From contig JAJEEE010000064.1 in NCBI GenBank assembly GCA_022821145.1, positions 1 through 64,000 on the forward strand: a stretch of 64,000 nucleotides of DNA, written 5' to 3'. Below the pieces are notes generated by a model. That model worked only from the letters and a program-made list of their open reading frames with translations, ran no database searches and had not been told where the DNA came from. Source of the DNA: Acidobacteriota bacterium (GTDB lineage Bacteria; Acidobacteriota; Terriglobia; 20CM-2-55-15). Positions 16,169 to 46,551 of the stretch are shown in pieces. The position numbers and the translations under genes were made by a program. Within the stretch, counting starts at the first letter, position 1, and each line of letters opens with the position of its first letter.

Positions 16169-17759
16169 CGAAGAGTCCCTGCGCGATCAGCGCTTCCGTG
16201 ATCACGGCCTCGACCGCCGGGTACACCTTCTCCGCGTTCGCCAGGAAGAAACCGCGCGACAGCATCAACGGCGTCCAGCCCGAGTCGTTCACCGCGTCCA
16301 CGTCCGCGCCCTGCTCGATCAGGTATCGCGCGATGGACGGCTGTCCCGACACCACCGCTCCGTGAAGCGCCGTGCTGCCGTCCCATCGGGGGTCGCCCAC
16401 GCCGAGGCCGGCGAGATCGTCGATGTTGGTCGGATAGTAGATGATCGTGTACTCGGGATCGCCCAGGATCGGGTAGTCGCCGAAGTCGGCGCGGGCGTCG
16501 ATGGCGTTGCCGGATTCGTGGGCGAGCCGGACGGCTTCGAGCCGTTCGGCCTCGGGCGTCCCCGTGAAGGGACCCGGCGTCTCGCCCTCGTAGTAGTTCA
16601 GGCCCGCGGCGACCATCAGCGGCGTGACTCCGAAACGGTTCGGGATCATCGGGTCCGCACCGTATTCCAGCAGCACGCGCATCAGGGCGACGTCGCCGTT
16701 GTTGGCCGCCAGCCAGTACGGCGTCGCGCCCACGTAGCTCAGGATGTGCCGTCCCAATTGAATGTTCGGCGGATTCGTCACGGCCGCGCCGAGCTTGTCG
16801 AACGGGCGTTCCTCCCAGTCGACGCGGATGTCGGGATCCGCTCCGTGCTGCAGCAGCTTCTCGGCGAGCTCCAGCGCCGTCGTGCGGCCGCGCGGCATCG
16901 GGGGACCGGTCAAATCGCCGCCCACCGCGGCGGATCCGGTCGCGCCCGGCTTGTTCAGCCATGCCAGCGTGTGGAGCGTGGAACCCCGGGCATCCGGGGC
17001 GTTCGGGTCGGCGCCGTGGTCCACGAGCACCGAGGCCAAGTCGTAGTATGCGTTGACGGCCGCCATGTTCAACGCGCTGGTCCCGTCCGGCGCGGCATCG
17101 TTGACGTCGGCGCCAAGGTCCAGGAGCACGCGGGACGTTTCGATGCGGTCGTTCAACACCGCGAACAGGAGCGGCGTGTAGCCGCGTTCCGACCGGGCGT
17201 GGATGCCGGCGCCCGCGCGGATGAGCCGGGCGACGGCGTCGGAGTTGCCTTCGCCGGCGGCCCACATCAGCGCGGTCTGGCCCCTGAACGGTTCGACCGC
17301 ATGAACGTCCGCCCCGTGATCGAGCAGGACCTCGATCGCTTCCACGCGCCCGTTGCGGGCCGCCGTCATCAACGCCGTCTGACCTTCGTGCGAGGCAGCG
17401 TCCGCGTCGACGCCGGCGTCGAGAAGCTTTCGGATCATCGGCGCGCGGCCGTTCGCGGCGGCCAGCGCAAGCGGGGTGACGTTGTAGCGCGTCGCCGCGT
17501 GGGGATCGGCGCCGGCGCCGAGCAACAGATCGACGATGACCGGGTTGTCGCCTTGCACGGCCCAATGCAGCGCCGTCGACGTGTCGGCCGCGGCGGCGTT
17601 CACGTCGAGTGAGCCCGCCAGCAGCGACCGTACGGCGTCAACGTCGCCGGCCCGCACGGCGGCGATCACGACCTGCGCCTGTCCGTCGCCGACCTGGGCG
17701 CGCGCTGCGCCGGCGAGAAACAGAGTCGCGATGATCGACAGGATGCTTGCGTGTTTCAT
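16155..17759 (-). CDS. Secreted ankyrin-repeat protein
   Basis: This 534-residue protein has a clear signal peptide (SIIATLFLAGAARAQ) and then about nine ankyrin repeats, for example DTSTALHWAVQGDNPVIVDLL, GQTALMTAARNGRVEAIEVLL and GWTPLMLSRG. A region around residues 290-340 breaks the repeats with EKLLQHGADPDIRVDWEERPF. Ankyrin stacks bind proteins; the export signal places this one in the periplasm or outside. Start ATG at 17759 is favoured because it is the only one followed by a signal. It is co-transcribed with the MBL gene and diverges over an 87-base gap from the DUF1592 and DUF1552 genes, so it probably works with that set. Confidence 0.9.
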   Translation of the reverse strand: MKHASILSIIATLFLAGAARAQVGDGQAQVVIAAVRAGDVDAVRSLLAGSLDVNAAAADTSTALHWAVQGDNPVIVDLLLGAGADPHAATRYNVTPLALAAANGRAPMIRKLLDAGVDADAASHEGQTALMTAARNGRVEAIEVLLDHGADVHAVEPFRGQTALMWAAGEGNSDAVARLIRAGAGIHARSERGYTPLLFAVLNDRIETSRVLLDLGADVNDAAPDGTSALNMAAVNAYYDLASVLVDHGADPNAPDARGSTLHTLAWLNKPGATGSAAVGGDLTGPPMPRGRTTALELAEKLLQHGADPDIRVDWEERPFDKLGAAVTNPPNIQLGRHILSYVGATPYWLAANNGDVALMRVLLEYGADPMIPNRFGVTPLMVAAGLNYYEGETPGPFTGTPEAERLEAVRLAHESGNAIDARADFGDYPILGDPEYTIIYYPTNIDDLAGLGVGDPRWDGSTALHGAVVSGQPSIARYLIEQGADVDAVNDSGWTPLMLSRGFFLANAEKVYPAVEAVITEALIAQGLFDEAR

Positions 17760-17846
17760 GGAAGCCTCCGCGTCTCGGGCAGTATACCGTTGTTGTCGGG
17801 GCCGAGTCCCGTGGAGGATAATGGCTCCGGATTCGTCCCCACGGCG

Positions 17847-20180
17847 ATGCGATACGTCAGGCAAACGCGGACGGCAACGCTGGTTGCCGTACTTTTCGCA
17901 ACGACGGCCGCGGCCGCCGCGCCGCAGGACCGCGCGGACACCGAGGCCTTCGTCAACCGGTACTGTACCGCCTGTCACAACGAGCGGGCGCGAACGGCCG
18001 GGCTCGTGCTCGAACCGGACTCGTTGGGCGACGTGGCGGGTGACGCGGAAGTCTGGGAGAAGGTTATCCGGAAACTGCGCGCCGGGGCCATGCCGCCGTT
18101 GAACGCGCCGCGGCCCGAGCCCGAAGAATACGACGCGGCCGCGTCGTTCCTGGAATCGGAATTGGACCGCGCCAGCGCCGCCCGCGTCAATCCCGGGGAG
18201 ATCGGCCTGCTGCGCCGGCTGACACGCACCGAGTACCGGAACGCGATCCGCGACCTGCTGGCCCTGGAGGACCTGCCGCGGGAAATGGACTACGATCTGC
18301 TTCTTCCGGCGGACAACGCCAGCAGCGGATTCGACAACATCGCCGATCTGCTGTTCGTCTCCCCGACCACAATGGAGCGCTACCTGGAGGCGGCGCGAAA
18401 GATCAGCCGGCTCGCGGTCGGCGATCCGTCGGCGCCGGAAGCCGTCAACATCCATCGCATCCATCCCGAGTCGGTGCAGAACGCGCGCGTCGAAGCGCTG
18501 CCGTTCGGAACCCGCGGCGGCCTGGCCATCCGCAGCCACTTCCCCATGGACGCCGACTACGTCGTCGACGTCGAGTTGGCGGGACGTGCGCGCGAGCCGC
18601 ATGCGCTGGAGGTCTCCGTCGACGGCGAGCGGGTCGCGCTGGTGACGATCGGCGTACCCGAGGCGCCCGCCACGGAGTTCCGTATTCCGATCGACGCGGG
18701 ACCGCGGCTCGTCGGCGTGACGTTCGTCGAGCGCAACGCGGCCCTGGACGAGGCCGTGCTCCGACCCCGCATGCGCAGCCGCGGCACGCAGCCCGCGATC
18801 GCCAACGTGACCATCCGCGGCCCCTTCGACGTCCGCGGGCCGGGCGACACGCCGTCGCGGCGGCGGATATTCTCCTGCCGCCCCGAGGATCTCTCCGAGG
18901 AACGCGCGTGCGCCGAGGAAATCCTCTCGTCCCTGGCGCGGCGCGCCTACCGGCGCCCGGCGAGCGCCGGCGATCTGGAGGAGTTGTGGCCCTTCTTCGA
19001 AACGGGGCGTGACGAGGCCGACTTCGACCGCGGGATCCAGCGGGCCGTCGAACGGCTGTTGGTCAGCCCCCAGTTCCTGTTCCGCATCGAGCGCGAACCG
19101 GCCGACGCCGCCCCCGGCGAAGCATACAGGATCAGCGACCTGGAGCTGGCGTCCCGGCTCTCGTTTTTCCTGTGGAGCAGCCTTCCCGACGACGCGCTGC
19201 TCGAGGACGCCGTCGCGGGACGCCTCGGCGACACGGCCGTTCTCGAGCGACACGTTCGCCGGATGCTCCAGGACCCCCGGGCCGACGCCCTTGTGACGAA
19301 CTTCGCCTGGCAGTGGCTGTTCCTGGGCGACGTGGCGTTGAAGGAACCCGACCCCCTGGTGTTCCGCCACTTCGACGAGACGCTGCGCCATGCTTTCGAG
19401 CGCGAAACCGCGTTGTTTCTGGGCAGCGTGTTCGGCGAAGACCGCAGCGTGCTGGATCTGCTCGACGCGGACTACACGTTCCTGAACGAGCGCCTGGCCG
19501 GCCACTACGGAATTCCCAACATCTCGGGCAGCGACTTCCGCCGCGTGACGCTGCCGCCCGGCAGCCGGCGCGGCGGACTCCTGGGCCAGGGCAGCATCCT
19601 GACGTTGACGTCCTATTCGACGCGCACCTCGCCGGTGCTCCGCGGCAAGTTCGTGCTGGACAACCTGCTGGCGTCGCCGCCGCCGCTCCCGCCCCCCGAC
19701 GTGCCGGCGTTAACGACCCGCAACCCGGAGTCGGGCGCGGCCCTGTCGATCCGCGAAGCCATGGTCCAGCACCGCGCCAGCCCGGCCTGCGCCGGATGCC
19801 ACGCGACCATGGACCCGATCGGGTTCGCGCTGGAGAACTTCGACGCCGTGGGCCGCTGGCGCGACACCGACGCGGGCGATGCGGTCGACGCCTCGGGCAC
19901 GTTTCCCGGAGGCCGGTCCTTCGACGGCGTGGACGGTCTCAAGCAGGTCCTGCTCCAGCAGCCGGACCAGTTCGTGGGCGCCCTCACCGAGAGACTGCTG
20001 ATGTTCGCCATCGGCCGCAACGTCCAGTACTTCGACGCGCCCGCGGTTCGGGCGATCGTCCAGGACGCGGCCGAAGACGACTACCGGTTCGCGTCGCTGG
20101 TGTCGGGCGTGGTGCGGAGCGTTCCGTTCCAGATGCGAATCAAGAGCGGCGAGGAACCGGAGCCCGCCGGCGCGCCGTGA
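17847..20180 (+). CDS. DUF1592/DUF1588-type exported multi-domain cytochrome-like protein
   Basis: This 777-residue exported protein has the planctomycete-type domain series DUF1587-DUF1595-DUF1592-DUF1588-DUF1585. After the signal (TLVAVLFATTAAAAAPQ) it has a haem c motif, Cys40-Thr-Ala-Cys43-His44, and a second, Cys648-Ala-Gly-Cys651-His652, near the C-terminus. Other family landmarks are LTRTEYRNAIRDLL, SRLSFFLWSSLPDDAL and GKFVLDNLL. ATG at 17847 is chosen because it directly precedes the signal; earlier ATGs lack one. The family is common in Planctomycetota and Acidobacteriota and lacks a proven reaction; a periplasmic haem-dependent oxidation is plausible. It sits 81 bases before the DUF1552 gene. 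Confidence 0.9.
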   Translation: MRYVRQTRTATLVAVLFATTAAAAAPQDRADTEAFVNRYCTACHNERARTAGLVLEPDSLGDVAGDAEVWEKVIRKLRAGAMPPLNAPRPEPEEYDAAASFLESELDRASAARVNPGEIGLLRRLTRTEYRNAIRDLLALEDLPREMDYDLLLPADNASSGFDNIADLLFVSPTTMERYLEAARKISRLAVGDPSAPEAVNIHRIHPESVQNARVEALPFGTRGGLAIRSHFPMDADYVVDVELAGRAREPHALEVSVDGERVALVTIGVPEAPATEFRIPIDAGPRLVGVTFVERNAALDEAVLRPRMRSRGTQPAIANVTIRGPFDVRGPGDTPSRRRIFSCRPEDLSEERACAEEILSSLARRAYRRPASAGDLEELWPFFETGRDEADFDRGIQRAVERLLVSPQFLFRIEREPADAAPGEAYRISDLELASRLSFFLWSSLPDDALLEDAVAGRLGDTAVLERHVRRMLQDPRADALVTNFAWQWLFLGDVALKEPDPLVFRHFDETLRHAFERETALFLGSVFGEDRSVLDLLDADYTFLNERLAGHYGIPNISGSDFRRVTLPPGSRRGGLLGQGSILTLTSYSTRTSPVLRGKFVLDNLLASPPPLPPPDVPALTTRNPESGAALSIREAMVQHRASPACAGCHATMDPIGFALENFDAVGRWRDTDAGDAVDASGTFPGGRSFDGVDGLKQVLLQQPDQFVGALTERLLMFAIGRNVQYFDAPAVRAIVQDAAEDDYRFASLVSGVVRSVPFQMRIKSGEEPEPAGAP

Positions 20181-20261
20181 CCGCAGCTTCGGCCATGGCA
20201 TTTGTTTTGCCCCGTTCGCCGTCTACGGTTTAAGATTCCTCGTTACGGGAAGGGGAAGCCC

Positions 20262-21605
20262 ATGTTCATCACGCAACGGTCGCTGTCGCGCAGGACGTTC
20301 CTTCGAGGTCTGGGAGGCGCCGCCGTCGGACTGCCGATGCTCGACGCCATGACGCCGGCGCTGGCCGCGCAGTCGGCGGCGCGCACGCCGCGGCTGGGAT
20401 TCGTCTACATCCCGAACGGCGTGATCCTGGAGCAGTGGAAACCGCAGATCATAGGCGCCGGCTACGATCTGCCTTCGATCCTGCAGCCGCTCTCCCCGAT
20501 CGCGCGCCAAGTCAACGTCCTGACCGGTCTGGCGCACCGCGAAGCCGACAGCAAGGGCGACGGCACGGGCGACCACCCGCGCGCGTCCGCGGTGTGGCTC
20601 ACGGGTGTCCATGCCTACGACCGGACGCAGCCGGGCGTCGAGGTCCGATTGGCCAAGACAGCCGACCAATACGCGGCCGATCGGCTCGGACGCGAAACCC
20701 GGCTGCCGTCGTTGGAGATGACGCTGGAAGAGCCGCGCGCCGGCGCGTGCGACTCGGGCGACTGCTTCTACGTCAACACGGTCTCGTGGAGGAACGAGAC
20801 GACGCCGAACCTGACCGAGGTGCATCCGCGCATCGTCTTCGAGCGGCTGTTCGGCGACGGCGGCAGCGCCGAGGAACGGCAGGCGCGCCTCGCGTCCCGG
20901 GGCAGCATCCTGGATTCGGTCCTCGAGGAAACCGGACGTCTCGCCTCGACGCTGGGGCCGGGCGACGGCCGCAAGCTGGCCGAGTACCTGGACTCGGTCC
21001 GCGAGATCGAGCAACGCATCCAGAACGCGGAATCCCGGGGCGCACAGTCGGTCGAGCTGCCCGACCGCCCGACGGACATCCCCGACTCGTGGGACGAGCA
21101 CGCGCGAATGATGTTCGATCTGCAGGTGCTGGCCTACCAGGCCGACGTCACACGCGTCGCCAGCATGGTCGTCGGCCGCGAGCTCAGCTCGCTGACGTAT
21201 CCGCAGATCGGCGTCCCCGAGGGTCACCACGCCATCTCGCATCACCGCGGCGAGATCGACCTGATCACGAAGAAGGCCAAGATCGACACCTACCACATGG
21301 AGCTCTTCAGCTACTTCCTCCGGAAGATGGAGTCGATCCCCGACGGCGACGGAACGTTGCTGGACAACAGCCTCATCCTCTGCGGCGGCGGCATGGGCGA
21401 CGGCAACCTGCACGGGCACACCGACCTTCCGTGCCTGATGGCCGGCACGCTCGGCGGCCGTTTCCGCACCGGACGCCACGTGGCGTACCCGGCCGACACG
21501 CCGATGTCGAACCTGCTCCTGACGATCCTGGACGCGGTGGACGTGCGCCTGGATCGCCTGGGAGACAGCACCGGACGCCTGCAGCCGGACCCGCTGTCGG
21601 TCTGA
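20262..21605 (+). CDS. DUF1552 protein with Tat signal
   Basis: This 447-residue protein begins with a twin-arginine export signal (SRRTFLRGLGG followed by a hydrophobic stretch). It is therefore exported folded, possibly with a cofactor. The body matches DUF1552: RLGFVYIPNGV, a DHPRASAVWLTG segment, EGHHAISHHRGE with several His, and LILCGGGMGDGNLHGHTDLPCLMAG, reminiscent of sulfatase/alkaline-phosphatase-like DUF1501 proteins. DUF1552 almost always sits next to DUF1592, as here, so the two probably act as a pair. ATG at 20262 follows the purine-rich AAGGGGAAG. The reaction is unknown. Confidence 0.9.
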   Translation: MFITQRSLSRRTFLRGLGGAAVGLPMLDAMTPALAAQSAARTPRLGFVYIPNGVILEQWKPQIIGAGYDLPSILQPLSPIARQVNVLTGLAHREADSKGDGTGDHPRASAVWLTGVHAYDRTQPGVEVRLAKTADQYAADRLGRETRLPSLEMTLEEPRAGACDSGDCFYVNTVSWRNETTPNLTEVHPRIVFERLFGDGGSAEERQARLASRGSILDSVLEETGRLASTLGPGDGRKLAEYLDSVREIEQRIQNAESRGAQSVELPDRPTDIPDSWDEHARMMFDLQVLAYQADVTRVASMVVGRELSSLTYPQIGVPEGHHAISHHRGEIDLITKKAKIDTYHMELFSYFLRKMESIPDGDGTLLDNSLILCGGGMGDGNLHGHTDLPCLMAGTLGGRFRTGRHVAYPADTPMSNLLLTILDAVDVRLDRLGDSTGRLQPDPLSV

Positions 21606-21879: not shown

Positions 21880-22281
21880 TCACACCTCTGGATTCACTAT
21901 CTGGATGCCCAGTCGTTGCGCGGCGCGTCTCATCGACCGATCCAGTGTCAGCAAGGGCGCGCGGCGCCGCGCGGCGCAATCCAAGAAGTACGCGTCGTAC
22001 GCATACGTGTTCAATTCCGCCGCCATGGACACGGCGTTCGCCATGTCGACATCCACGTATCGCAATGGGATGCTGTCGAAGATCTCCAGGCCTCTTCGGG
22101 CGTCTGCAACTTCGATTCGGTCCTGCTTCAGCATTGCCGTGAAAGCATTCCCGACCTCCCAGGGGATGGAACCGGGACCGATAAGCGTCCGGCCCGATGT
22201 CACCGAGACAATCGCATCCCGCTCAGGCTCGCCCACGAGCACGGCGACAAGCGCCGACGTGTCAATCACAATGTCCGACAC
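21880..22281 (-). CDS. PIN-domain toxin (VapC-like ribonuclease)
   Basis: This 133-residue PIN-domain protein carries the expected acidic residues: Asp7 in DIVIDTSAL, Glu42 in PWEVGNAF, Asp96 in YAYDAYFLD, and a late LLTLDRSM Asp. Such toxins cut tRNA or rRNA in a Mg2+-dependent way. GTG at 22281 is preferred over longer readings because GGAG lies six bases upstream and the fold begins at once. It is the first gene of the pair and is followed by its antitoxin after one base. A strong promoter and a palindrome lie just upstream. Confidence 0.88.
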   Translation of the reverse strand: MSDIVIDTSALVAVLVGEPERDAIVSVTSGRTLIGPGSIPWEVGNAFTAMLKQDRIEVADARRGLEIFDSIPLRYVDVDMANAVSMAAELNTYAYDAYFLDCAARRRAPLLTLDRSMRRAAQRLGIQIVNPEV

Positions 22282-22300
22282 AACCGCTCCAGACGTTTTG

Positions 22301-22329
22301 AATTGTACAATTGTCAAGAATAATGTCAA
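22301..22329 (-). promoter_or_regulatory. Promoter and palindromic operator of the PIN/Phd pair
   Basis: On the minus strand TTGACA (22329-22324) and TACAAT (22307-22302) are separated by 16 bases, a good sigma-70-like pair in an otherwise GC-rich region. The -10 box lies inside the perfect 12-bp palindrome AATTGTACAATT (22301-22312), a natural site for autorepression by the Phd-type antitoxin. The toxin start is about 20 bases downstream. Confidence 0.65.
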
Positions 22330-22426
22330 ACGATGGTGTAGGTCCGCTTGAGCCGCGCCTCGCCTGGGCCTCCGACGTGGTCCCCGTTGTCTCGAGGAGC
22401 AGTTCAAGCGACGGCGCGTTTGGCCG

Positions 22427-23918: not shown

Positions 23919-24326
23919 CTACTGCGGCTGCTCGATGGCCGACGTGCCGCCGAGGAAAATCTTGCGCCCGTCCGGGAACGTCATGTCGCGGCCGTTGGCC
24001 TTGTTGGACCCGTCCAGCGCGCGATACCCGTCCACCAGGATCTCGGAGCCGATCGGCAGGGAGTCCTGTGTCACGCCGCGCCGGAAGAGCGTGTTGGGCG
24101 TACCGCCCTCGATCATCCAGCGCGTGACGGTGCCGTCGTCGTCCGTCACGTCGATGTGGAACCACGAGTGCGGATTGATCAACTCGACACGAGCGACCGT
24201 GCCGCGCAACTGGATGGGCTCATCGGCGTCGAACTCGGCCGTGAAGGCATGATGCGCCGACACCGGAATGCCGGCCCCGGCGGCCATTGCCAGGACCACG
24301 GCCATCGCCGTTAGCTGCGTTTGCAT
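23919..24326 (-). CDS. DUF6152 exported protein, copy 1
   Basis: This 135-residue protein has a strong signal peptide ending VSA, after which the mature chain would start His-His-Ala-Phe. Conserved DUF6152 features are RGTVARVELINPHSWFHIDV, WMIEGGTPNTLFRRGV and a late IFLGGTSAI. A short OB-like beta-barrel seems likely. AAGGAG lies upstream of ATG 24326. It is 26 bases after the secreted partner gene and is followed by pirin. Function is unknown; the N-terminal His pair and the internal Asn-Pro-His suggest metal binding. Confidence 0.85.
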   Translation of the reverse strand: MQTQLTAMAVVLAMAAGAGIPVSAHHAFTAEFDADEPIQLRGTVARVELINPHSWFHIDVTDDDGTVTRWMIEGGTPNTLFRRGVTQDSLPIGSEILVDGYRALDGSNKANGRDMTFPDGRKIFLGGTSAIEQPQ

Positions 24327-24352: not shown

Positions 24353-25150
24353 TCAATCGTCGGGTTGCCGGCGAAGGTGGCCGTAGAGCACCTCTTCGGC
24401 GAACTCCGGGCACTTGAATTCCATGAGCTGGGCGTTTTCCTCGACACGGCGATAGAGCGGCATTCGGATCGTCCACGGCCGGGAGAACGTATTGGGATCC
24501 TCGATCGTCGCCTCGTACATCAAGACGTTCGGGCTGCTCAGCGTGTACCTTTCCACGACGTGAGTCGCGTTGGAATGGTGGTTGCCGGCCCGGTCGAGCC
24601 ACGTCTGGCCGTTCTGCGAGGCGACGTCGATGACCAGCGTGTCGCCGTCCCAGCGCCCGTTGGACCATCCCATCCAACTGTCGGCCGGCGCCCGCGTCGG
24701 CGCGCCCATGTTGACGACCCTCACGGCGCCGGCGAACTCGTAGGCGAGCATGATCACGTCCTGGCTCTGGATGATCTGGAACGGATACGGCATGTACGTT
24801 GCGCGCGGAACGCCCGGCATGTAACACTTGACCTCGGGATCGAGTTCCAGCCGGTTCGCGAAGTTGTCGTCCCGCGTGGCCAACGCTTCCGGCAGGTACG
24901 GTATTTCCCCCCCGACGACGACGCCGATGCCGGGCGGCACCGCATACTGGGCGCCGAGCTCCGCCAGAACCGCCGGCGAGGCGGCGTGTGGTTCCAGGTT
25001 CCAGTGCGCTTCGTTCAGGGCCTGCCAGATGCCGTTCATATCCGGGCGGCCGTCGGCGAGCCGCTCGACGTCGTCATCCTGCCCGAAAGCCGCCGGAACG
25101 AGCGCGAGGGCGGACACGAACACCGCGACCGCCGCAAAACGGTGCGTCAT
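24353..25150 (-). CDS. Secreted GRWxGDTLV-family protein beside DUF6152, copy 1
   Basis: This 265-residue exported protein has a Sec signal (VFVSALALVPAAFGQ). It begins with RPDMNGIWQALNEAHWNL and includes a Cys-bearing VKCYMPGVPRATYMPYPFQI. It then has the family signature SNGRWDGDTLVIDV, followed by antiparallel-strand segments (VVERYTLSSPNVLMYEATIEDP) and a second Cys (EFKCPEFAEEV). Proteins of this type occur in many copies in Acidobacteriota genomes; no reaction is known to me. ATG at 25150 is chosen for the signal peptide. It heads the minus-strand run with DUF6152, pirin and the flavodoxin-like gene. Confidence 0.8.
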   Translation of the reverse strand: MTHRFAAVAVFVSALALVPAAFGQDDDVERLADGRPDMNGIWQALNEAHWNLEPHAASPAVLAELGAQYAVPPGIGVVVGGEIPYLPEALATRDDNFANRLELDPEVKCYMPGVPRATYMPYPFQIIQSQDVIMLAYEFAGAVRVVNMGAPTRAPADSWMGWSNGRWDGDTLVIDVASQNGQTWLDRAGNHHSNATHVVERYTLSSPNVLMYEATIEDPNTFSRPWTIRMPLYRRVEENAQLMEFKCPEFAEEVLYGHLRRQPDD

Positions 25151-25271
25151 CGGAACTCTCCCCCTCTCGCCCCGCAAGGCGTTCGTTCTAACATGCATGC
25201 ATCGGATCCGGCACGTGGGCCAGCCTATCCGAGCGACGACGGCTGGAGCAATCAAAAACAGGAGACACACG

Positions 25272-31376: not shown

Positions 31377-31584
31377 GCCATGTCTCCTCCCGCCCCGGCC
31401 ACGCCCGCGCGCCGACGCAATCGTCCCACTCTAACGACCCCGCCGCGCAACTTCAACGGAGACCCTCGCGACGGGCGCGTCCCAACCCTGCCTGGATGGC
31501 TCAGAATCCGCTGGACAGCCAACGCGCGATGTCGTGCAATGTGAGGTGAAACCGACCATGACGCGTTGAATCGGAGGTATGTCC

Positions 31585-32562
31585 ATGGCCGACCGGTCCG
31601 GAATCTTCATCTGGGCGATGGCTGCCGCGCTGGCGGTCCCGGCAACGGCGCAGATCGTCACGAACCCCGACTACGTGGCGCCGCGGACGCCGTGGGGCGA
31701 TCCCGACATCTCCGGAACGTTCTCGAGCGACGACTCCAACCGCGTGCCGCTGGAACGTCCCGAGGAATTCGGCGACCGGTTGTTCTTGACCGAGGCGGAG
31801 TACCGGGAACGGATCGCTCAGAACGAGGAACGCATCGCCGGCTTGACCGAGGCGTTCGCCGGCGAGAATCCGCGCGTGACCATCAATCCGCCCGGGCACT
31901 GGGCCGAGTGGGGCGACGAGGCGTCGCGTCAGACGTCGCGCGTGATCGACCCGCCCGACGGGCGGATTCCACCCCTCCTGCCCGGGGCCGAAGACCGGCG
32001 GCCCCTGGGCACGTTCCAACCCGCCGGCCCGGCCGGGTCGTGGGAAGACTTCACCCTGTACATCCGCTGCATCACGCGCGGTATCCAGGGGTCGATGAAC
32101 CCCACCATCTACGGCAACGCCAGCCGGATCGTCCAGGGCCCCGGTTTCGTGGGCCTGCAAACGGAAATGGTCCACGAGACGCGCATCGTCCCGCTCGACG
32201 GCGGTCCGCACGTCGGCGGCGACATCCGGATGTACATGGGCAATTCCACCGGCCGGTGGGAAGGCGACACGCTCGTGGTCGAAACGCGGAACCTGACCGA
32301 TCGGACGGCCGTCGGCGGGACGCGGCACACCGGGAACCTCATCGTCACGGAGCGCTTCACCCGCATCGCCCCGGACCGCGTCTTCTACGAGGCGACGTAC
32401 GACGATCCGGAAACCTGGACCCGCCCGTGGACCGTCGGCTTTCCGCTGGTCGAGAAGCCGGGCTACGACGTGTACGAGTACGCCTGCCACGAAGGCAACG
32501 AAGGGATGTTCAACATGTTGAGCGGCGCCCGGGCGGACGACGCCGCGGCCGCGGACCGATAA
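31585..32562 (+). CDS. Secreted GRWxGDTLV-family protein, copy 2a
   Basis: This 325-residue exported protein has the signal FIWAMAAALAVPATAQ. It then shows TPWGDPDISGTFSSDD, typical of these secreted Acidobacteriota proteins, a TLYIRCITRGIQGSM segment, and the signature STGRWEGDTLVVETRN. It ends with FYEATYDDPETWTRPWTVGFPL and a Cys (YACHEGNEGMFNML). The ribosome site GGAGGT at 31573-31578 abuts one ATG (31579) but is ideally spaced for ATG 31585, which is chosen. It starts a four-gene plus-strand run: this gene, FmdB, DUF6152 and copy 2b. Confidence 0.8.
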   Translation: MADRSGIFIWAMAAALAVPATAQIVTNPDYVAPRTPWGDPDISGTFSSDDSNRVPLERPEEFGDRLFLTEAEYRERIAQNEERIAGLTEAFAGENPRVTINPPGHWAEWGDEASRQTSRVIDPPDGRIPPLLPGAEDRRPLGTFQPAGPAGSWEDFTLYIRCITRGIQGSMNPTIYGNASRIVQGPGFVGLQTEMVHETRIVPLDGGPHVGGDIRMYMGNSTGRWEGDTLVVETRNLTDRTAVGGTRHTGNLIVTERFTRIAPDRVFYEATYDDPETWTRPWTVGFPLVEKPGYDVYEYACHEGNEGMFNMLSGARADDAAAADR

Positions 32563-32564
32563 CC

Positions 32565-32828
32565 ATGCCGATATACGAATACCAGTGCGGCGCCTGCGGC
32601 CACCAGTTCGAGGCGTTGATCCTTCCCAAGACCACCGGAACCGCGTGTCCCGAATGTCAGGGTACGGAGCTGGAGCGGCTGGTGTCGAGCTTCGCCGTCG
32701 ATTCGGAGACCACGCGCAAGTCCAACCTGGAAGCGGGACGCCGCCAGTACGCGCCGATCCGGAAAGAGAAGCAGTGGGAGCAGATGAAATACGAGCAGCG
32801 CGAATTGAAGGAGCACAGTGAGGGATAA
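32565..32828 (+). CDS. FmdB-family zinc-ribbon protein
   Basis: This 87-residue protein begins MPIYEYQCGACG and has a second pair CPECQ about 20 residues on, forming the four-Cys zinc ribbon of FmdB/CxxC-type regulatory proteins. The rest is charged helix (RKEKQWEQMKYEQRELKEHSEG). The family is often called a putative regulatory protein, with no firm function. It begins two bases after the previous stop and overlaps the DUF6152 start by 11 bases, so it is firmly in the operon. Confidence 0.88.
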   Translation: MPIYEYQCGACGHQFEALILPKTTGTACPECQGTELERLVSSFAVDSETTRKSNLEAGRRQYAPIRKEKQWEQMKYEQRELKEHSEG

Positions 32829-33255
32829 CACGCCGCCGAAACCGGCCGCTCGACGGAGGAACGCCGTCCTTCCACCGGCCGTGTTGCTGATGACGATCCT
32901 CCCGGGGGCTTGGGCGCACCACTCCTTCGCGATCTTCGACCACACGCGCACTCACACGCTGAAGGGGACGGTGGCCGAGTGGAGCTGGACGAACCCCCAC
33001 GGCTACATCGAGCTGGATGTCACCGAGGGCCTGGAAGGCGTGGAGCACTTCACGCTGGAGTTGACCAGCGTCAACATGCTGCGGCGCGCCGGCTGGAGAT
33101 CGTCGGACATCGCCGTCGGCGACGCCGTGACGGTCATCACCGCGCCCCTGATCAACGGCGATCCCGGCGGACTGCTCCTGGAAATCCAGCTTCCGGACGG
33201 ACGGATTCTGACGCCGCCCGTACCCGCCATCGACACGTTCCGGAGGACGCCCTAG
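32818..33255 (+). CDS. DUF6152 exported protein, copy 2
   Basis: This 145-residue protein starts with GTG inside the FmdB gene. A basic leader and hydrophobic stretch end in AWA, after which the mature protein would start His-His-Ser-Phe-Ala. It shares with copies 1 and 3 the block GTVAEWSWTNPHGYIELDV and a middle LTSVNMLRRAGW. The stop codon is followed with no gap by the start of the next secreted gene. Role unknown; N-terminal His pair and Asn-Pro-His retained. Confidence 0.83.
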   Translation: MRDNTPPKPAARRRNAVLPPAVLLMTILPGAWAHHSFAIFDHTRTHTLKGTVAEWSWTNPHGYIELDVTEGLEGVEHFTLELTSVNMLRRAGWRSSDIAVGDAVTVITAPLINGDPGGLLLEIQLPDGRILTPPVPAIDTFRRTP

Positions 33256-34020
33256 ATGCGGCCGGATCCCGGCGCGGCCCGAATCTTGCCGGCGCTCTGC
33301 GCGGTCCTGCTGATAGCGGTGGGCTCGGGGGCTCAAGACCACGGGGACCCCCGCATCGGCGGAACATGGACGATCTCCTTCGCGGCCGGCGGCAACCCGG
33401 ACGCCACACCGGACGAACGGACCGTGGACGATGCGCCTCCGCTGAAGCCGGAATACCTTGGCGCCTGGCGGGAACGGCAGCGCCTGGCCCAAGAAGCCAG
33501 CGCGCGCGGCGAGCCGCTGGCCACGGCCGCCACGTTCTGCCTGCCGCAGGGAATGCCCGCCATGATGGGCACCGGGGGGCCGTTCCCGATGGAGATACTG
33601 TTGAGCCCCGGCCAGGTCACGATCGTTCAGGAGGCCTACACACAGGTCCGCCGGATCTACCTGGACACGCCCCAGTCGACCCTGGACGATATCGAGCCCG
33701 GCTTCTACGGCCGGTCGGTCGGCCGTTGGGAAGGCGACACGCTCGTCGTGGACACGATCGGCGTCAAGGAATCGGTCCGGTACCGCGACGTGCCCCACAC
33801 GCTCGACATGCGCATCACCGAGCGCATCCGTCGCGTCGAGCCCGATACGCTGTGGGACGAGGTGACGATCGAGGATCCCGAAATCCTCGAAGAGCCCTGG
33901 GAAGTGACGTTCGTGTTCAACCGGTTGCCGGGTTACGAAATGATGGAATACGTCTGCGAGGACAACCGCGAGTACGCCGACGAAAACGGCGTGATGCGGC
34001 TGCGTATCGACCCCCGTTAG
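33256..34020 (+). CDS. Secreted GRWxGDTLV-family protein, copy 2b
   Basis: This 254-residue exported protein has its ATG directly after the DUF6152 stop. A signal (LCAVLLIAVGSGAQ) precedes RIGGTWTISFAAGGNP, then ATFCLPQGMPAMMGTGG, a VRRIYLD segment and the signature SVGRWEGDTLVVDTIG. It ends DPEILEEPWEVTFVFNRLPG and a Cys (EYVCEDNREY). It shares the signature and the C-terminal layout with copy 2a, but it is shorter. It is the last gene of the operon and is followed by a strong hairpin. Confidence 0.8.
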   Translation: MRPDPGAARILPALCAVLLIAVGSGAQDHGDPRIGGTWTISFAAGGNPDATPDERTVDDAPPLKPEYLGAWRERQRLAQEASARGEPLATAATFCLPQGMPAMMGTGGPFPMEILLSPGQVTIVQEAYTQVRRIYLDTPQSTLDDIEPGFYGRSVGRWEGDTLVVDTIGVKESVRYRDVPHTLDMRITERIRRVEPDTLWDEVTIEDPEILEEPWEVTFVFNRLPGYEMMEYVCEDNREYADENGVMRLRIDPR

Positions 34021-43316: not shown

Positions 43317-44051
43317 CTAGCGCGCGGAACAGGGCGTCGGATTCCACCCCGCGTCATCGGGGAGTTGCTTCAAGTCGGTCGTGTTGTGGAGCGGACGGCT
43401 GAAGTAGACCGGGTCGTCCACGGTGGTGGTGATGCTCAGCCATCGGTCCCCGTTGGGCATGGCGAGCAGGTCGTAGTACTCGGTCACGACCGTCTCGCCG
43501 CTGAACGGGGCCCCGTTCTTGCGGATGTAGCCTTCACTCAGGTTGTCGGTCACGACTTTCAGACCGCCGCCGCCGCCGGGCCCGGGTTGCCACTCGGCGA
43601 CGGAGCGCCCCTGCCAGTCGGGTTCGGCCACCGGGGCGTCTCCGAAGTGGAAACGCCGCGTCTGCATGCCGTAGTCCGTGTCGATGCGAAGCGTGTCGGC
43701 GTCCTCCCACGTGATGCGGAACCGGCCGGGCAGCCGCATGATTGCCGGCGCCGCGTATCCCTTGCAGGCCACGCCGGCGGCCTCGTCGGCCTCCGGATCC
43801 CACGTATCGCCCACTCGGCGCCCGTCCGCGTTCAGCGTCAACGCGTCGTAGACGCCGGGGTTGGGCGTCACCATGCGGAACTTCCAGTCCTCGGTCACGA
43901 CCGACACCCAGTAGCCGGTGATGTCGATCGGCGCCGCGTCCCGCGCCGGCGTCGGCGGACCGCCCCGCTGGGCCAACGCCGGCGTCGCAGAGGCCCATGC
44001 CAGAATCAACGGGATCGCAACGCCGCGCGCCCAGCTCTTCGCGTCACGCAT
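43317..44051 (-). CDS. Secreted protein of the third DUF6152 locus
   Basis: This 244-residue exported protein has the signal AIPLILAWASATPALAQ. It shows DITGYWVSVVTEDWKFRMVTP, a Cys-bearing VACKGYAAPAIMRLPGRF, and DADTLRIDTDYGMQTRRFHFG, where ADTLRIDT echoes the GDTLV signature of the other partners. It ends DDPVYFSRPLHNTTDLKQLPD and a Cys. The family is unknown to me. It starts three bases after the DUF6152 stop, so both are expressed together, and ends close to the M1 peptidase start. Confidence 0.72.
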   Translation of the reverse strand: MRDAKSWARGVAIPLILAWASATPALAQRGGPPTPARDAAPIDITGYWVSVVTEDWKFRMVTPNPGVYDALTLNADGRRVGDTWDPEADEAAGVACKGYAAPAIMRLPGRFRITWEDADTLRIDTDYGMQTRRFHFGDAPVAEPDWQGRSVAEWQPGPGGGGGLKVVTDNLSEGYIRKNGAPFSGETVVTEYYDLLAMPNGDRWLSITTTVDDPVYFSRPLHNTTDLKQLPDDAGWNPTPCSAR

Positions 44052-44054
44052 GAA

Positions 44055-44453
44055 TCAGTCCACGACCTCGCCGGGACGGGTTCCCCAGGTCAGCCCGTCG
44101 GCCGGACGCTCCAGCGTCACCATCAGCGCGCGGAATTCGCCGCGCACCCGGGACGGGTTGGCCGTGATCACGATCTCGTCGCCGCTGCGCAGCGTGTCGC
44201 GCGACACGCCCTGCCGGCTCAACGCTCCGGCGCCGCTCCATTCCACGGCCCAACGCTGGACGTTGCCTTCCGCGTCGGGCGCCGAGATGTGCAGGTACGA
44301 ATGCGGGTTGCGCAGGGCGAACTGCACCAGTTGGCCTTCGAGCCTGAGGGACTGCTCGACGTCGTAGGTGGCGGCATAGGAATGATGCGCGTACGCGGCC
44401 GTGCCCGTCATCAGCGCGGCGAACGCCATCGCCAGAAGTACATTGCGCTTCAT
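44055..44453 (-). CDS. DUF6152 exported protein, copy 3
   Basis: This 132-residue protein has the signal peptide AFAALMTGTAAYA, with cleavage giving a mature His-His-Ser-Tyr start. Shared family blocks are LEGQLVQFALRNPHSYLHIS and WAVEWSGAGALSRQGV, followed by GDEIVITANPSR. AGGAG lies before ATG 44453. It sits between the fused GxWxGxTLV/MBL gene and another secreted gene on the minus strand. It is the third member of this family in 64 kb. Confidence 0.85.
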   Translation of the reverse strand: MKRNVLLAMAFAALMTGTAAYAHHSYAATYDVEQSLRLEGQLVQFALRNPHSYLHISAPDAEGNVQRWAVEWSGAGALSRQGVSRDTLRSGDEIVITANPSRVRGEFRALMVTLERPADGLTWGTRPGEVVD

Positions 44454-44513: not shown

Positions 44514-46430
44514 CTATTCCGTCAGGCTGTCGTAGACGGCCTCGACGAACATCTCCGTCGTCCAGTCGCCGGTGTCGGCGCCGTACCGGGGATCGAAATC
44601 CAGCGTGGGCCGGGCGGCCTGGACTTGCTCCAGCGACAGGCCCTCGTCGATCAGCGCCTGGACGCGGTCGCTGACCATCTGCACCATGTTTCGATAATAC
44701 GCCACGTCGGCCGTGTCCGACAGCCGTCCCCGCCCCGGGATGACCCAAGTCCCGCCCTGGGACCGGTACTCGGCCACGGCCAAGTCCAGGATCCGGTTCA
44801 AGCCGTCGATGACGCCCCCGACACTGCCGCCGCGCGCGCGGTCGATCCTCGGGTAACTCACCGTGGAGTAGATGTCCCCCGCGGCGATCACCTCCGAATG
44901 CCGGAAGTAGACGATGCTGTCGCCGTCGGTGGTGGCGGGCGTCGAATAGGCCAGCACGGCCTCGCCGTTGAAGTACGACGTCAGCTTGTAGATGTCGCTG
45001 TAGAACGATTCCGTCGGCCAGGCGTCGGCATCCGTGGACCAGGGATCGTCCAGCGGACCCGACATCGCGATCAGCGCGTTCTCGTGGGCGATGACGGCGG
45101 CGCGCCCGCCCCGGCCTTCGCCGGCGTCCGCCAGAGGGGCGTTGCCGCCGACGTTATGGGGCGCGGCGTTGGTGTTCATGATGTAACGCAAGCCCCGGGC
45201 GGGCGCCGGTGAGCTGATGACGGCGTTCGTGTAGGGGCTGGACCATCCGGGCACGCCCGGGCACTGCGCGCCTGCGCACGCGTTGGGCCGCGCCGCCGCC
45301 GCCCGATCGGCCAGCTCGGTGACGGTTCGAAGGATGTCGCCGGTCATTTCGGCCGGGCCCGTGTTGACCAGCATGATCCCTTCCGGACCGACGGACGCGG
45401 CCAGATTCCGACCGTCGGCGACCAGCATGTAGAGATTGCCCTGCACGGGTAGCACGTGGACCTGCCCGTCCCGCGGGCTCTGCGCCTGGACGCGGTCGCG
45501 CGCCGCGAGGTGCGTCGACGACGATGGCACGTCGAGGTCGGCGGCGTTCGCCGATCCGTCCAGCGTGGACCGGTACTCGGGATAGACGGTACGGACGCCG
45601 CCGCGGACCGCTTCGAACGGAATCCAGTTCTCAGACGGCAGCCATTCCTCGATGAAGAGATCCCGGCCCGGCAGGTGGTGCGGCACGAAGTGCGGGTCCG
45701 TCCCGCCCGATTCGGCGAACGTGGCCGCGTTGCAGCTTTCCATGTTCACGCGCGTCGTCGGATCGTAGTGGTAGAACGTGGACTGGACGAACGGCTCGTC
45801 CATGTAGACCGGGTCGTCGGTCACCTGCACGACCGTCAACGTGTCGTCGTGGCGCGTCAGGAACTCGGTCATCGTCAGCATGTCGCTGGTCTGGGGACCG
45901 CCCCGTCTCAGGAATCCATCTTTCAGGTGCGTGGTCTGAACGACCAGCGTGTTGCCGACCCACTCGCCGGTGGAGAACCCGGTCCACGTATGGGGCGCCC
46001 AGGCCGGGGGATGCGCCCGGCCGTCCATGTAGATCGGGCGGTCCAGGGACCGCCAGAACTGGACGCGATAGGCGCGGATGCTGCGGTCGAGCGGATCGAG
46101 CTCGCTCAGGATGCGCGCTCCCCCCAGGCCGCGCCACTGGTGCGGCGCCGAGTGCGGCCGGCACTGGTAGTACCACATGCCCCATATGGACTCGGCCGTC
46201 GTGTCCGACCGCATCCGTCCGGCGTCGTTGAACGGCACGCCCAGGTAGTCGTCGGGCGCGGGCTGAAGGCCGCCCAACTGGCCCTGGTCCTCGCTGGTCT
46301 CCAGCACCCATTCCCCGGAAATGTCGGGCGGGGCGGCCGTGCGGCCGACCAGCACCTGCGCCGCGGCCAGCGGCGACGCGATCATGAGAATACCCACGCA
46401 GCGGGCAACGGCTTGCGGGACGTTGTTCAT
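44514..46430 (-). CDS. Fusion of a GRWxGDTLV-type domain and a degenerate MBL-fold domain
   Basis: This 638-residue exported protein starts at 46430 with AGGAG upstream. The N-terminal 280 residues follow the secreted partner pattern (DISGEWVLETSEDQGQLGG, YYQCRPHSAPHQW, STGEWVGNTLVVQTT, then DDPVYMDEPFVQSTFYHYD). Residues about 330-638 have MBL-fold order: LPVQGNLYMLVADGRNLA, PEGIMLVNTGPAEM, YIMNTNAAPHNVGGN and WVIPGRGRLSD. The metal motif that normally reads THxHxDHxGG is NTNAAPHNVGG, and PGHG is PGRG, so zinc binding is probably lost. It looks like a pseudoenzyme or binding protein. Confidence 0.78.
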   Translation of the reverse strand: MNNVPQAVARCVGILMIASPLAAAQVLVGRTAAPPDISGEWVLETSEDQGQLGGLQPAPDDYLGVPFNDAGRMRSDTTAESIWGMWYYQCRPHSAPHQWRGLGGARILSELDPLDRSIRAYRVQFWRSLDRPIYMDGRAHPPAWAPHTWTGFSTGEWVGNTLVVQTTHLKDGFLRRGGPQTSDMLTMTEFLTRHDDTLTVVQVTDDPVYMDEPFVQSTFYHYDPTTRVNMESCNAATFAESGGTDPHFVPHHLPGRDLFIEEWLPSENWIPFEAVRGGVRTVYPEYRSTLDGSANAADLDVPSSSTHLAARDRVQAQSPRDGQVHVLPVQGNLYMLVADGRNLAASVGPEGIMLVNTGPAEMTGDILRTVTELADRAAAARPNACAGAQCPGVPGWSSPYTNAVISSPAPARGLRYIMNTNAAPHNVGGNAPLADAGEGRGGRAAVIAHENALIAMSGPLDDPWSTDADAWPTESFYSDIYKLTSYFNGEAVLAYSTPATTDGDSIVYFRHSEVIAAGDIYSTVSYPRIDRARGGSVGGVIDGLNRILDLAVAEYRSQGGTWVIPGRGRLSDTADVAYYRNMVQMVSDRVQALIDEGLSLEQVQAARPTLDFDPRYGADTGDWTTEMFVEAVYDSLTE

Positions 46431-46551
46431 GTACTCTCCTGAGGCCAAACGATCCACGGTAGAATATCGAAATCATACGTTACACCGCTGGCGGGCAAAT
46501 CGAAAGAGGCGACCGCAAGCCCGCCGGCCGTCGTCGAAAGGAAACGATATC

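Follow-up and report, generated by a model that had tools for sequence, protein, structure and literature searches.

The window analyzed here is a stretch of 64,000 nucleotides from an Acidobacteriota bacterium (contig JAJEEE010000064.1), and it contains three genes encoding proteins of the DUF6152 family. DUF6152 gene 1 (23919..24326, (-) strand) encodes a protein of 135 aa, gene 2 (32818..33255, (+) strand, GTG start) a protein of 145 aa, and gene 3 (44055..44453, (-) strand) a protein of 132 aa. With scores of 101.7, 95, and 85.1 bits, respectively, against the PF19649 (DUF6152) model, whose curated cut-off is 27 bits, all three are members of the family.

A reading made from the sequence alone had placed an AxA signal-peptidase site (VSA, AWA, and AYA) directly ahead of a His-His pair in each of these proteins, and the coordinates, the PF19649 scores, and the sequences agree with it: the signal peptides end as IPVSA|HHAF in gene 1, GAWA|HHSF in gene 2, and AAYA|HHSY in gene 3. 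The internal Asn-Pro-His (NPH) motif that it had noticed about 25-30 residues further on was also found in all three proteins, its His being mature residue 29, 28, and 29 in genes 1, 2, and 3, respectively. In gene 1, the mature protein starts (HHAF) at 24254, and the codons of His1, His2, and the NPH His29 are located at 24252-24254, 24249-24251, and 24168-24170. The corresponding positions are 32917-32919, 32920-32922, and 32998-33000 in gene 2 (mature start HHSF, NPH His at residue 28), and 44385-44387, 44382-44384, and 44301-44303 in gene 3 (HHSY, residue 29). The conserved Trp46 and Glu49 are both present in genes 1 and 3, and the W..E pair was not found in the sequence of gene 2.

Each of the three genes lies next to a member of a second family, called here the partner family, with gaps of 26, 0, and 3 bp for DUF6152 genes 1, 2, and 3, respectively. 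Partner gene 1 (24353..25270, (-) strand; 354 bits with the partner HMM) is located 26 bp upstream of DUF6152 gene 1 on the same strand. A partner-family gene encoding 327 aa (31579..32562, (+) strand; 244.9 bits) lies upstream of DUF6152 gene 2, and another (33256..34020, (+) strand; 178.5 bits) starts at the base after the stop codon of that gene. The partner-family gene at 43317..44051 ((-) strand; 89.4 bits) is found 3 bp downstream of DUF6152 gene 3, and a partner barrel also forms the N-terminal part of a 647-aa protein (44514..46457, (-) strand; 113.8 bits), the HMM match spanning residues 56-249 of the 44517-46472 open frame. The C-terminal part of this last protein shows a weak likeness to a SoxH-like quinoprotein-relay metallohydrolase (TIGR04559, E 0.0075). 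Elsewhere in the window, the product of 21880-22407 ((-) strand) resembles, by eye, a PIN-domain (VapC-type) protein, and 17751-21605 ((+) strand) appears to encode a cytochrome protein of the DUF1592 type and, after it, a protein of the DUF1552 type; Pfam scans of neighbours showed that these DUF1592-/DUF1552-type families recur beside other DUF6152 copies.

The three genes belong to a large set, as 88 DUF6152 genes were counted in the home genome (4.18 Mb, 89 contigs), i.e., about 2% of its genes if roughly one gene per kilobase is assumed for 88 copies in 4.2 Mb. Genomes of the same taxonomic family contain up to at least 91 copies, one of them just 2, and DUF6152 is absent from most other genomes of the class. 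The largest amplification seen, at least 150 copies, was in a 3.3-Mb metagenome-assembled genome (MAG) labelled Rhodospirillaceae (G192, the MAG of locus L111). Distant members were found in alpha-, beta-, and gammaproteobacteria; an order-level search for further single-copy gammaproteobacterial contexts matched the starting genomes only.

The partner family is closely associated with these copies. It is fused to 13 and located within 300 bp of 64 of the 88 DUF6152 copies in the home genome, 58 of the 64 being on the same strand, so that 77/88 copies have a fused or nearby partner when about 6% would be expected by a rough estimate. The home-genome DUF6152 loci alone contain 101 partner-family open frames, and, among 41 relatives, the partner was present in all 15 genomes with DUF6152 and in one other. 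The partner proteins are secreted, about 260 residues long, and carry the motifs PDGxPDLxGxW, GxWEGDTLVVD, ERxT, and EDPxxFTRPW in this order; no Pfam or NCBIfam model matched them. C85, G137, W143, and C223 are invariant or nearly so, and the family has an invariant Cys pair. The AF2 model (pLDDT 94.9) has cellular retinol- and fatty-acid-binding proteins (FABP/CRBP) as its nearest structures by Foldseek, and the partner is thus predicted to be a calycin-type, lipocalin-like ligand-binding barrel.

The conservation of the DUF6152 proteins was then considered. In an alignment of the 88 home-genome paralogs, the only invariant columns were those of His1, His2, and the His of NPH, together with a single Gly column. 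As the contig scan had used HH and NPH patterns, this invariance might have been a search artefact. An HMM built only from the region after NPH, and thus containing neither motif, was applied to all collected loci and recovered 377 open frames, of which 350 were distinct, with a median pairwise identity of 34%. HH was present in 350/350 distinct sequences, as was the third His (NPH in 334, xPH in 12, and xNH/AH in 4), and these three His were the only columns conserved at 100%. Three apparent HH misfits, on inspection, also show HH immediately after an AxA-type site. The invariance stands with the motif-free HMM and with loci that were not fetched by the patterns, and the artefact was rejected. 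The expectation that HH would be invariant across a broad DUF6152 set was thus borne out, no member with an altered N-terminal His having been found, whereas for Asn-Pro-His it holds for the His alone, since N and P vary. Trp46 and Glu49 are conserved in 95% and 89% of the 350 sequences, respectively.

Residue -1 is Ala, Gly, or Ser in 343/350 sequences (98%), and from the -3/-1 pattern we infer that signal peptidase cleaves exactly before HH. Among the proteins of the SignalP 6.0 training set that undergo signal-peptide cleavage, 2.6% have His at mature position 1 (PMC12537917), and the HH pattern is far beyond chance. In one paralog, L063:2935-3366 ((+) strand), a Val separates the site from the His pair (AAWA-V-HH); if cleaved after AWA, this protein would begin with Val-His-His and have a His at position 3, as in the ATCUN motif, instead of position 1.

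The same residues persist far from the Acidobacteriota. The DUF6152 proteins of Paracoccus, Sinorhizobium, Azospirillum, Comamonas, Cupriavidus, Phyllobacterium, and Indioceanicola have AHHGW plus (N/P/Q)PH; N27 and other residues change in this proteobacterial branch, but the three His stay, and the distant gammaproteobacterial members keep both HH and NPH. Glu49 is missing from several members of the proteobacterial branch and is therefore not an obligate ligand.

Fusion proteins provided another view of the N-terminus. DUF6152 was fused to the partner domain in 47 open frames and was the N-terminal domain in 47/47, so that the HH end stays free; HH is visibly located at the end of the signal peptide in nearly all of them. 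Such an order would be expected if the His N-terminus had to be free and, although no proof, argues independently for the importance of a free end.

In parallel, the fold of the family was predicted. The AF2 model of the mature DUF6152 gene 1 protein, computed with 99 natural relatives, had a pLDDT of 86.9 and a pTM of 0.80, with the order beta1 (8-26), beta2 (29-37), beta3 (43-50), helix (53-58), beta4 (71-79), and beta5 (85-92); the pLDDT of the first ten residues was just 72. The leading Foldseek matches in the PDB were all OB-folds (LysRS anticodon domain, SSB, PriB, Rim1, and Stn1), and coevolution, analyzed by pseudo-likelihood in the set of 350 sequences, independently recovered the pairings beta2-beta3, beta1-beta4, beta1-beta2, beta3-beta5, and beta4-beta5. 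DUF6152 is thus predicted to be an OB-fold by AF2, Foldseek, and coevolution-derived strand pairing.

LPMOs, CopC, PmoB, and X325/Bim1 have an Ig-like beta-sandwich fold, and the OB-fold prediction, together with coevolution, excludes DUF6152 from these sandwiches. The sequence-only reading had expected the same geometry as in LPMOs and CopC; homology offers no basis for this, since the predicted fold differs, the Pfam-A scan of the three DUF6152 proteins matched no model other than DUF6152 (no LPMO or chitin-binding family among them), and no sequence relative was found in the PDB apart from one marginal adhesin (E 0.0066).

The position of the N-terminus relative to the third His was examined by coevolution, ignoring the scores involving H1, H2, or H29 because invariant columns carry no covariation. 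The beta2-beta3 register (31+47 = 78) places His29 opposite residue 49 and on the face that also carries W31 and M47. The pairs F8-W31, A3-M47, E7-W31, and F4-G51 coevolve at 2.7-3.6 sigma, and the first of them (3.6 sigma) brings the beginning of strand 1 close to W31, which is two residues away from His29. Overall, enrichment of coevolution with the His29 neighbourhood was weak for residues 3-8 (p = 0.02) and was not significant for residues 3-6 (p = 0.15). These data weakly suggest that the N-terminal segment lies over the His29 face.

The genomic context in Proteobacteria revealed a different partner. DUF6644, annotated as DUF2214 in Sinorhizobium, is a small membrane protein in which H31 is invariant, and its gene is directly adjacent to that of DUF6152 in 5/6 annotated proteobacterial regions. 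It directly follows DUF6152 in Paracoccus denitrificans, P. versutus, Sinorhizobium, Azospirillum, and Comamonas, forming a tight two-gene unit in Alpha- and Betaproteobacteria (loci L293, L294, L295, L296, and L297); in Sinorhizobium and Azospirillum, the genes overlap by one base. The Novosphingobium DUF6152 gene has two DUF6644 genes at a distance of about 3 kb. The barrel partner is not annotated beside DUF6152 in the proteobacterial regions. Seven DUF6644 matches were found in the home genome, two pairs of which are near DUF6152 genes.

A survey of 252 neighbours in the home genome, for which the 25 commonest families of each scan were listed without a background control, showed PQQ dehydrogenases or propellers, metallo-beta-lactamases, and amidohydrolases as the commonest families, and also cytochrome c. 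No CopC, CopD, PCuAC, or other copper family was among the families listed, and a copper neighbourhood in the home genome was thus not found among them. DUF411 proteins are known from copper and metal resistance loci, and at L194:6891-7331 ((+) strand) one of them (92 bits) adjoins a single-copy DUF6152 gene.

Taken as a whole, we find it reasonably probable that DUF6152 is an exported OB-fold family with a transition-metal site of the His1 and His29 type, most likely for Cu(II), resembling a histidine brace on an unrelated fold. Signal peptidase would expose His-His as residues 1 and 2. His1 would bind the metal through its amine and its imidazole, joined by the invariant His near position 29, where strand 2 starts, and perhaps by His2; the site would lie next to Trp46, on the beta2/beta3 side of the barrel that faces outward. 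A free N-terminal His alone chelates transition metals. Binding of some metal is the part of this proposal that we consider likely: three unchanging His in an otherwise variable family, and the Ni or Cu binding of other such DUFs (PMC12537917), make it the most economical reason for the conservation. For a brace composed specifically of His1 and His29, the chances appear about even.

By analogy, copper is mildly favoured as the metal, because exported precedents having an N-terminal His with Trp/Glu (YcnI; PMC8424229) bind Cu(II). The earlier suggestion of a small secreted copper protein was thus partly retained: the N-terminal His stands as the core feature (HH and third His in 350/350, fusions 47/47), but the likeness to LPMOs and CopC was lost with the fold. 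Alternatively, the invariant His may bind Ni, Zn, Co, or Fe, with DUF6152 capturing metal for uptake in the manner of DUF4198 or the "anglerases". DUF4198, which has an N-terminal His, prefers Ni over Cu (PMC12537917), and DUF6152 is found near a siderophore-type FecCD ABC system in Azospirillum ramasamyi, downstream of a FecCD permease in L197, and flanked by siderophore TonB receptors in Comamonas. However, this metal context is inconsistent, the neighbours in Paracoccus and Sinorhizobium being phenylacetate and choline-sulfate genes, and the DUF411 gene beside one copy points to copper; we therefore regard a metal other than copper as unlikely, though it is the most serious of the alternatives.

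It could also be argued that the His serve a structural or a metal-free catalytic purpose, or that they contact the barrel partner, whose nearly obligate presence in Acidobacteriota makes an invariant interface conceivable. Yet the proteobacterial branch, in which no barrel is annotated beside DUF6152, shows the same invariance of the His, and three invariant His with little else fixed would be atypical of a binding interface, so that this explanation appears rather improbable. In the periplasmic OB-fold heme chaperone CcmE, the His sits in a flexible C-terminal tail, and a similar heme-binding or heme/electron transfer role of DUF6152, for which its export and predicted OB-fold, the PQQ dehydrogenases and cytochrome c among its neighbours, and the invariant H31 of DUF6644 could be invoked, is very improbable, since the DUF6152 His are at the N-terminus and where strand 2 begins, the DUF6152-DUF6644 pair was not seen to be accompanied by heme-lyase genes, and heme sites do not need the free His N-terminus to which the fusion order points.

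If the preferred reading, a putative metal site on an exported OB-fold, is correct, its use may differ between lineages. The single-copy proteobacterial form, encoded ahead of DUF6644, could capture a metal and hand it over to this membrane protein, as the CopC-CopD-like layout of the two genes suggests. In Acidobacteriota and some MAGs, amplification has raised the family to tens of copies or to more than a hundred. Each of these is paired with or fused to a secreted lipocalin-like barrel, whose ligand is probably small and hydrophobic, and the metal site probably acts on this ligand or is delivered to it. Either hand-over or a redox role is thus proposed for DUF6152. The presence of 88 copies would be odd for a plain metallochaperone and counts against our best explanation, and dozens of diverged copies among catabolic genes appear to fit substrate-specific enzymes better than a chaperone. 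A far-reaching version of the proposal, which we hold to be speculative and rather unlikely, is that of a new class of extracytoplasmic copper oxidoreductases, in which an OB-fold N-terminal histidine brace is combined with an interchangeable substrate-selecting barrel, and about 90 to more than 150 substrate-specific copies per genome provide uncultured Acidobacteriota and their relatives with their principal means of oxidation in the periplasm.

These results make a very large family without an assigned function testable as a metalloprotein, and genetics is feasible because some hosts that carry a single copy or a few are in culture (Paracoccus denitrificans, Sinorhizobium meliloti, and Steroidobacter agaridevorans). 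A real metal site would also give a function-bearing handle on the equally large partner family, and would mean that N-terminal-histidine chelation evolved on an OB-fold independently of the LPMO/CopC-type sandwiches. The literature searched contained no mention of DUF6152 or DUF6644 and no paper with both "histidine brace" and "OB-fold", and, by that literature, the N-terminal-His arrangement on an OB-fold is previously undescribed.

Among known systems, the Cu(I)/Ag(I) chaperones CusF and SilF share with DUF6152 a periplasmic OB-fold in which a His and a Trp are close together on strands 2-3. The ligands of CusF are H36, W44, M47, and M49, whereas DUF6152 has no conserved Met ligands, and CusF makes no use of its N-terminus. 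Homology to CusF, prompted by the common fold and the His/Trp pair, was rejected for want of profile support (hhalign probability 1.3%). Like the copper histidine-brace proteins (LPMOs, CopC, PmoB, and X325/Bim1), DUF6152 is exported, has a predicted His1 after cleavage, and keeps a second invariant His; unlike them, it has a predicted OB-fold and two adjacent N-terminal His, and its metal site is putative. The DUF6152-DUF6644 unit recalls the CopC-CopD pair in that the gene of an exported N-terminal-His protein directly precedes that of a multi-pass membrane protein, but the likeness is one of gene layout only, neither protein matching the Pfam CopC and CopD models.

The mono-histidine brace protein YcnI of B. 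subtilis (DUF1775) has conserved His, Glu, and Trp residues and binds Cu(II), and its gene adjoins one for a membrane protein that belongs to a system for copper uptake (PMC8424229). DUF6152 resembles it in the N-terminal His, in the Glu and Trp conserved in most members, and in the membrane-protein gene beside it. However, the fold of YcnI is that of a cupredoxin and its site lacks a second His ligand, while DUF6152 combines a predicted OB-fold with an invariant His29 and a dispensable Glu; a YcnI-type site on a cupredoxin-like fold was thus not found in DUF6152, despite the conservation of H1 (100%), W46 (95%), and E49 (89%). Finally, DUF4198, DUF6702, and the anglerases, described under the term "signal-strapping" (Nat Commun 2025) in a paper that does not mention DUF6152, are small families with a mature N-terminal His that bind Ni or Cu (PMC12537917). 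In contrast to DUF6152, these are beta-sandwiches, and their N-terminal His is kept in 79% and 65% of sequences, compared with 350/350 for the DUF6152 proteins.
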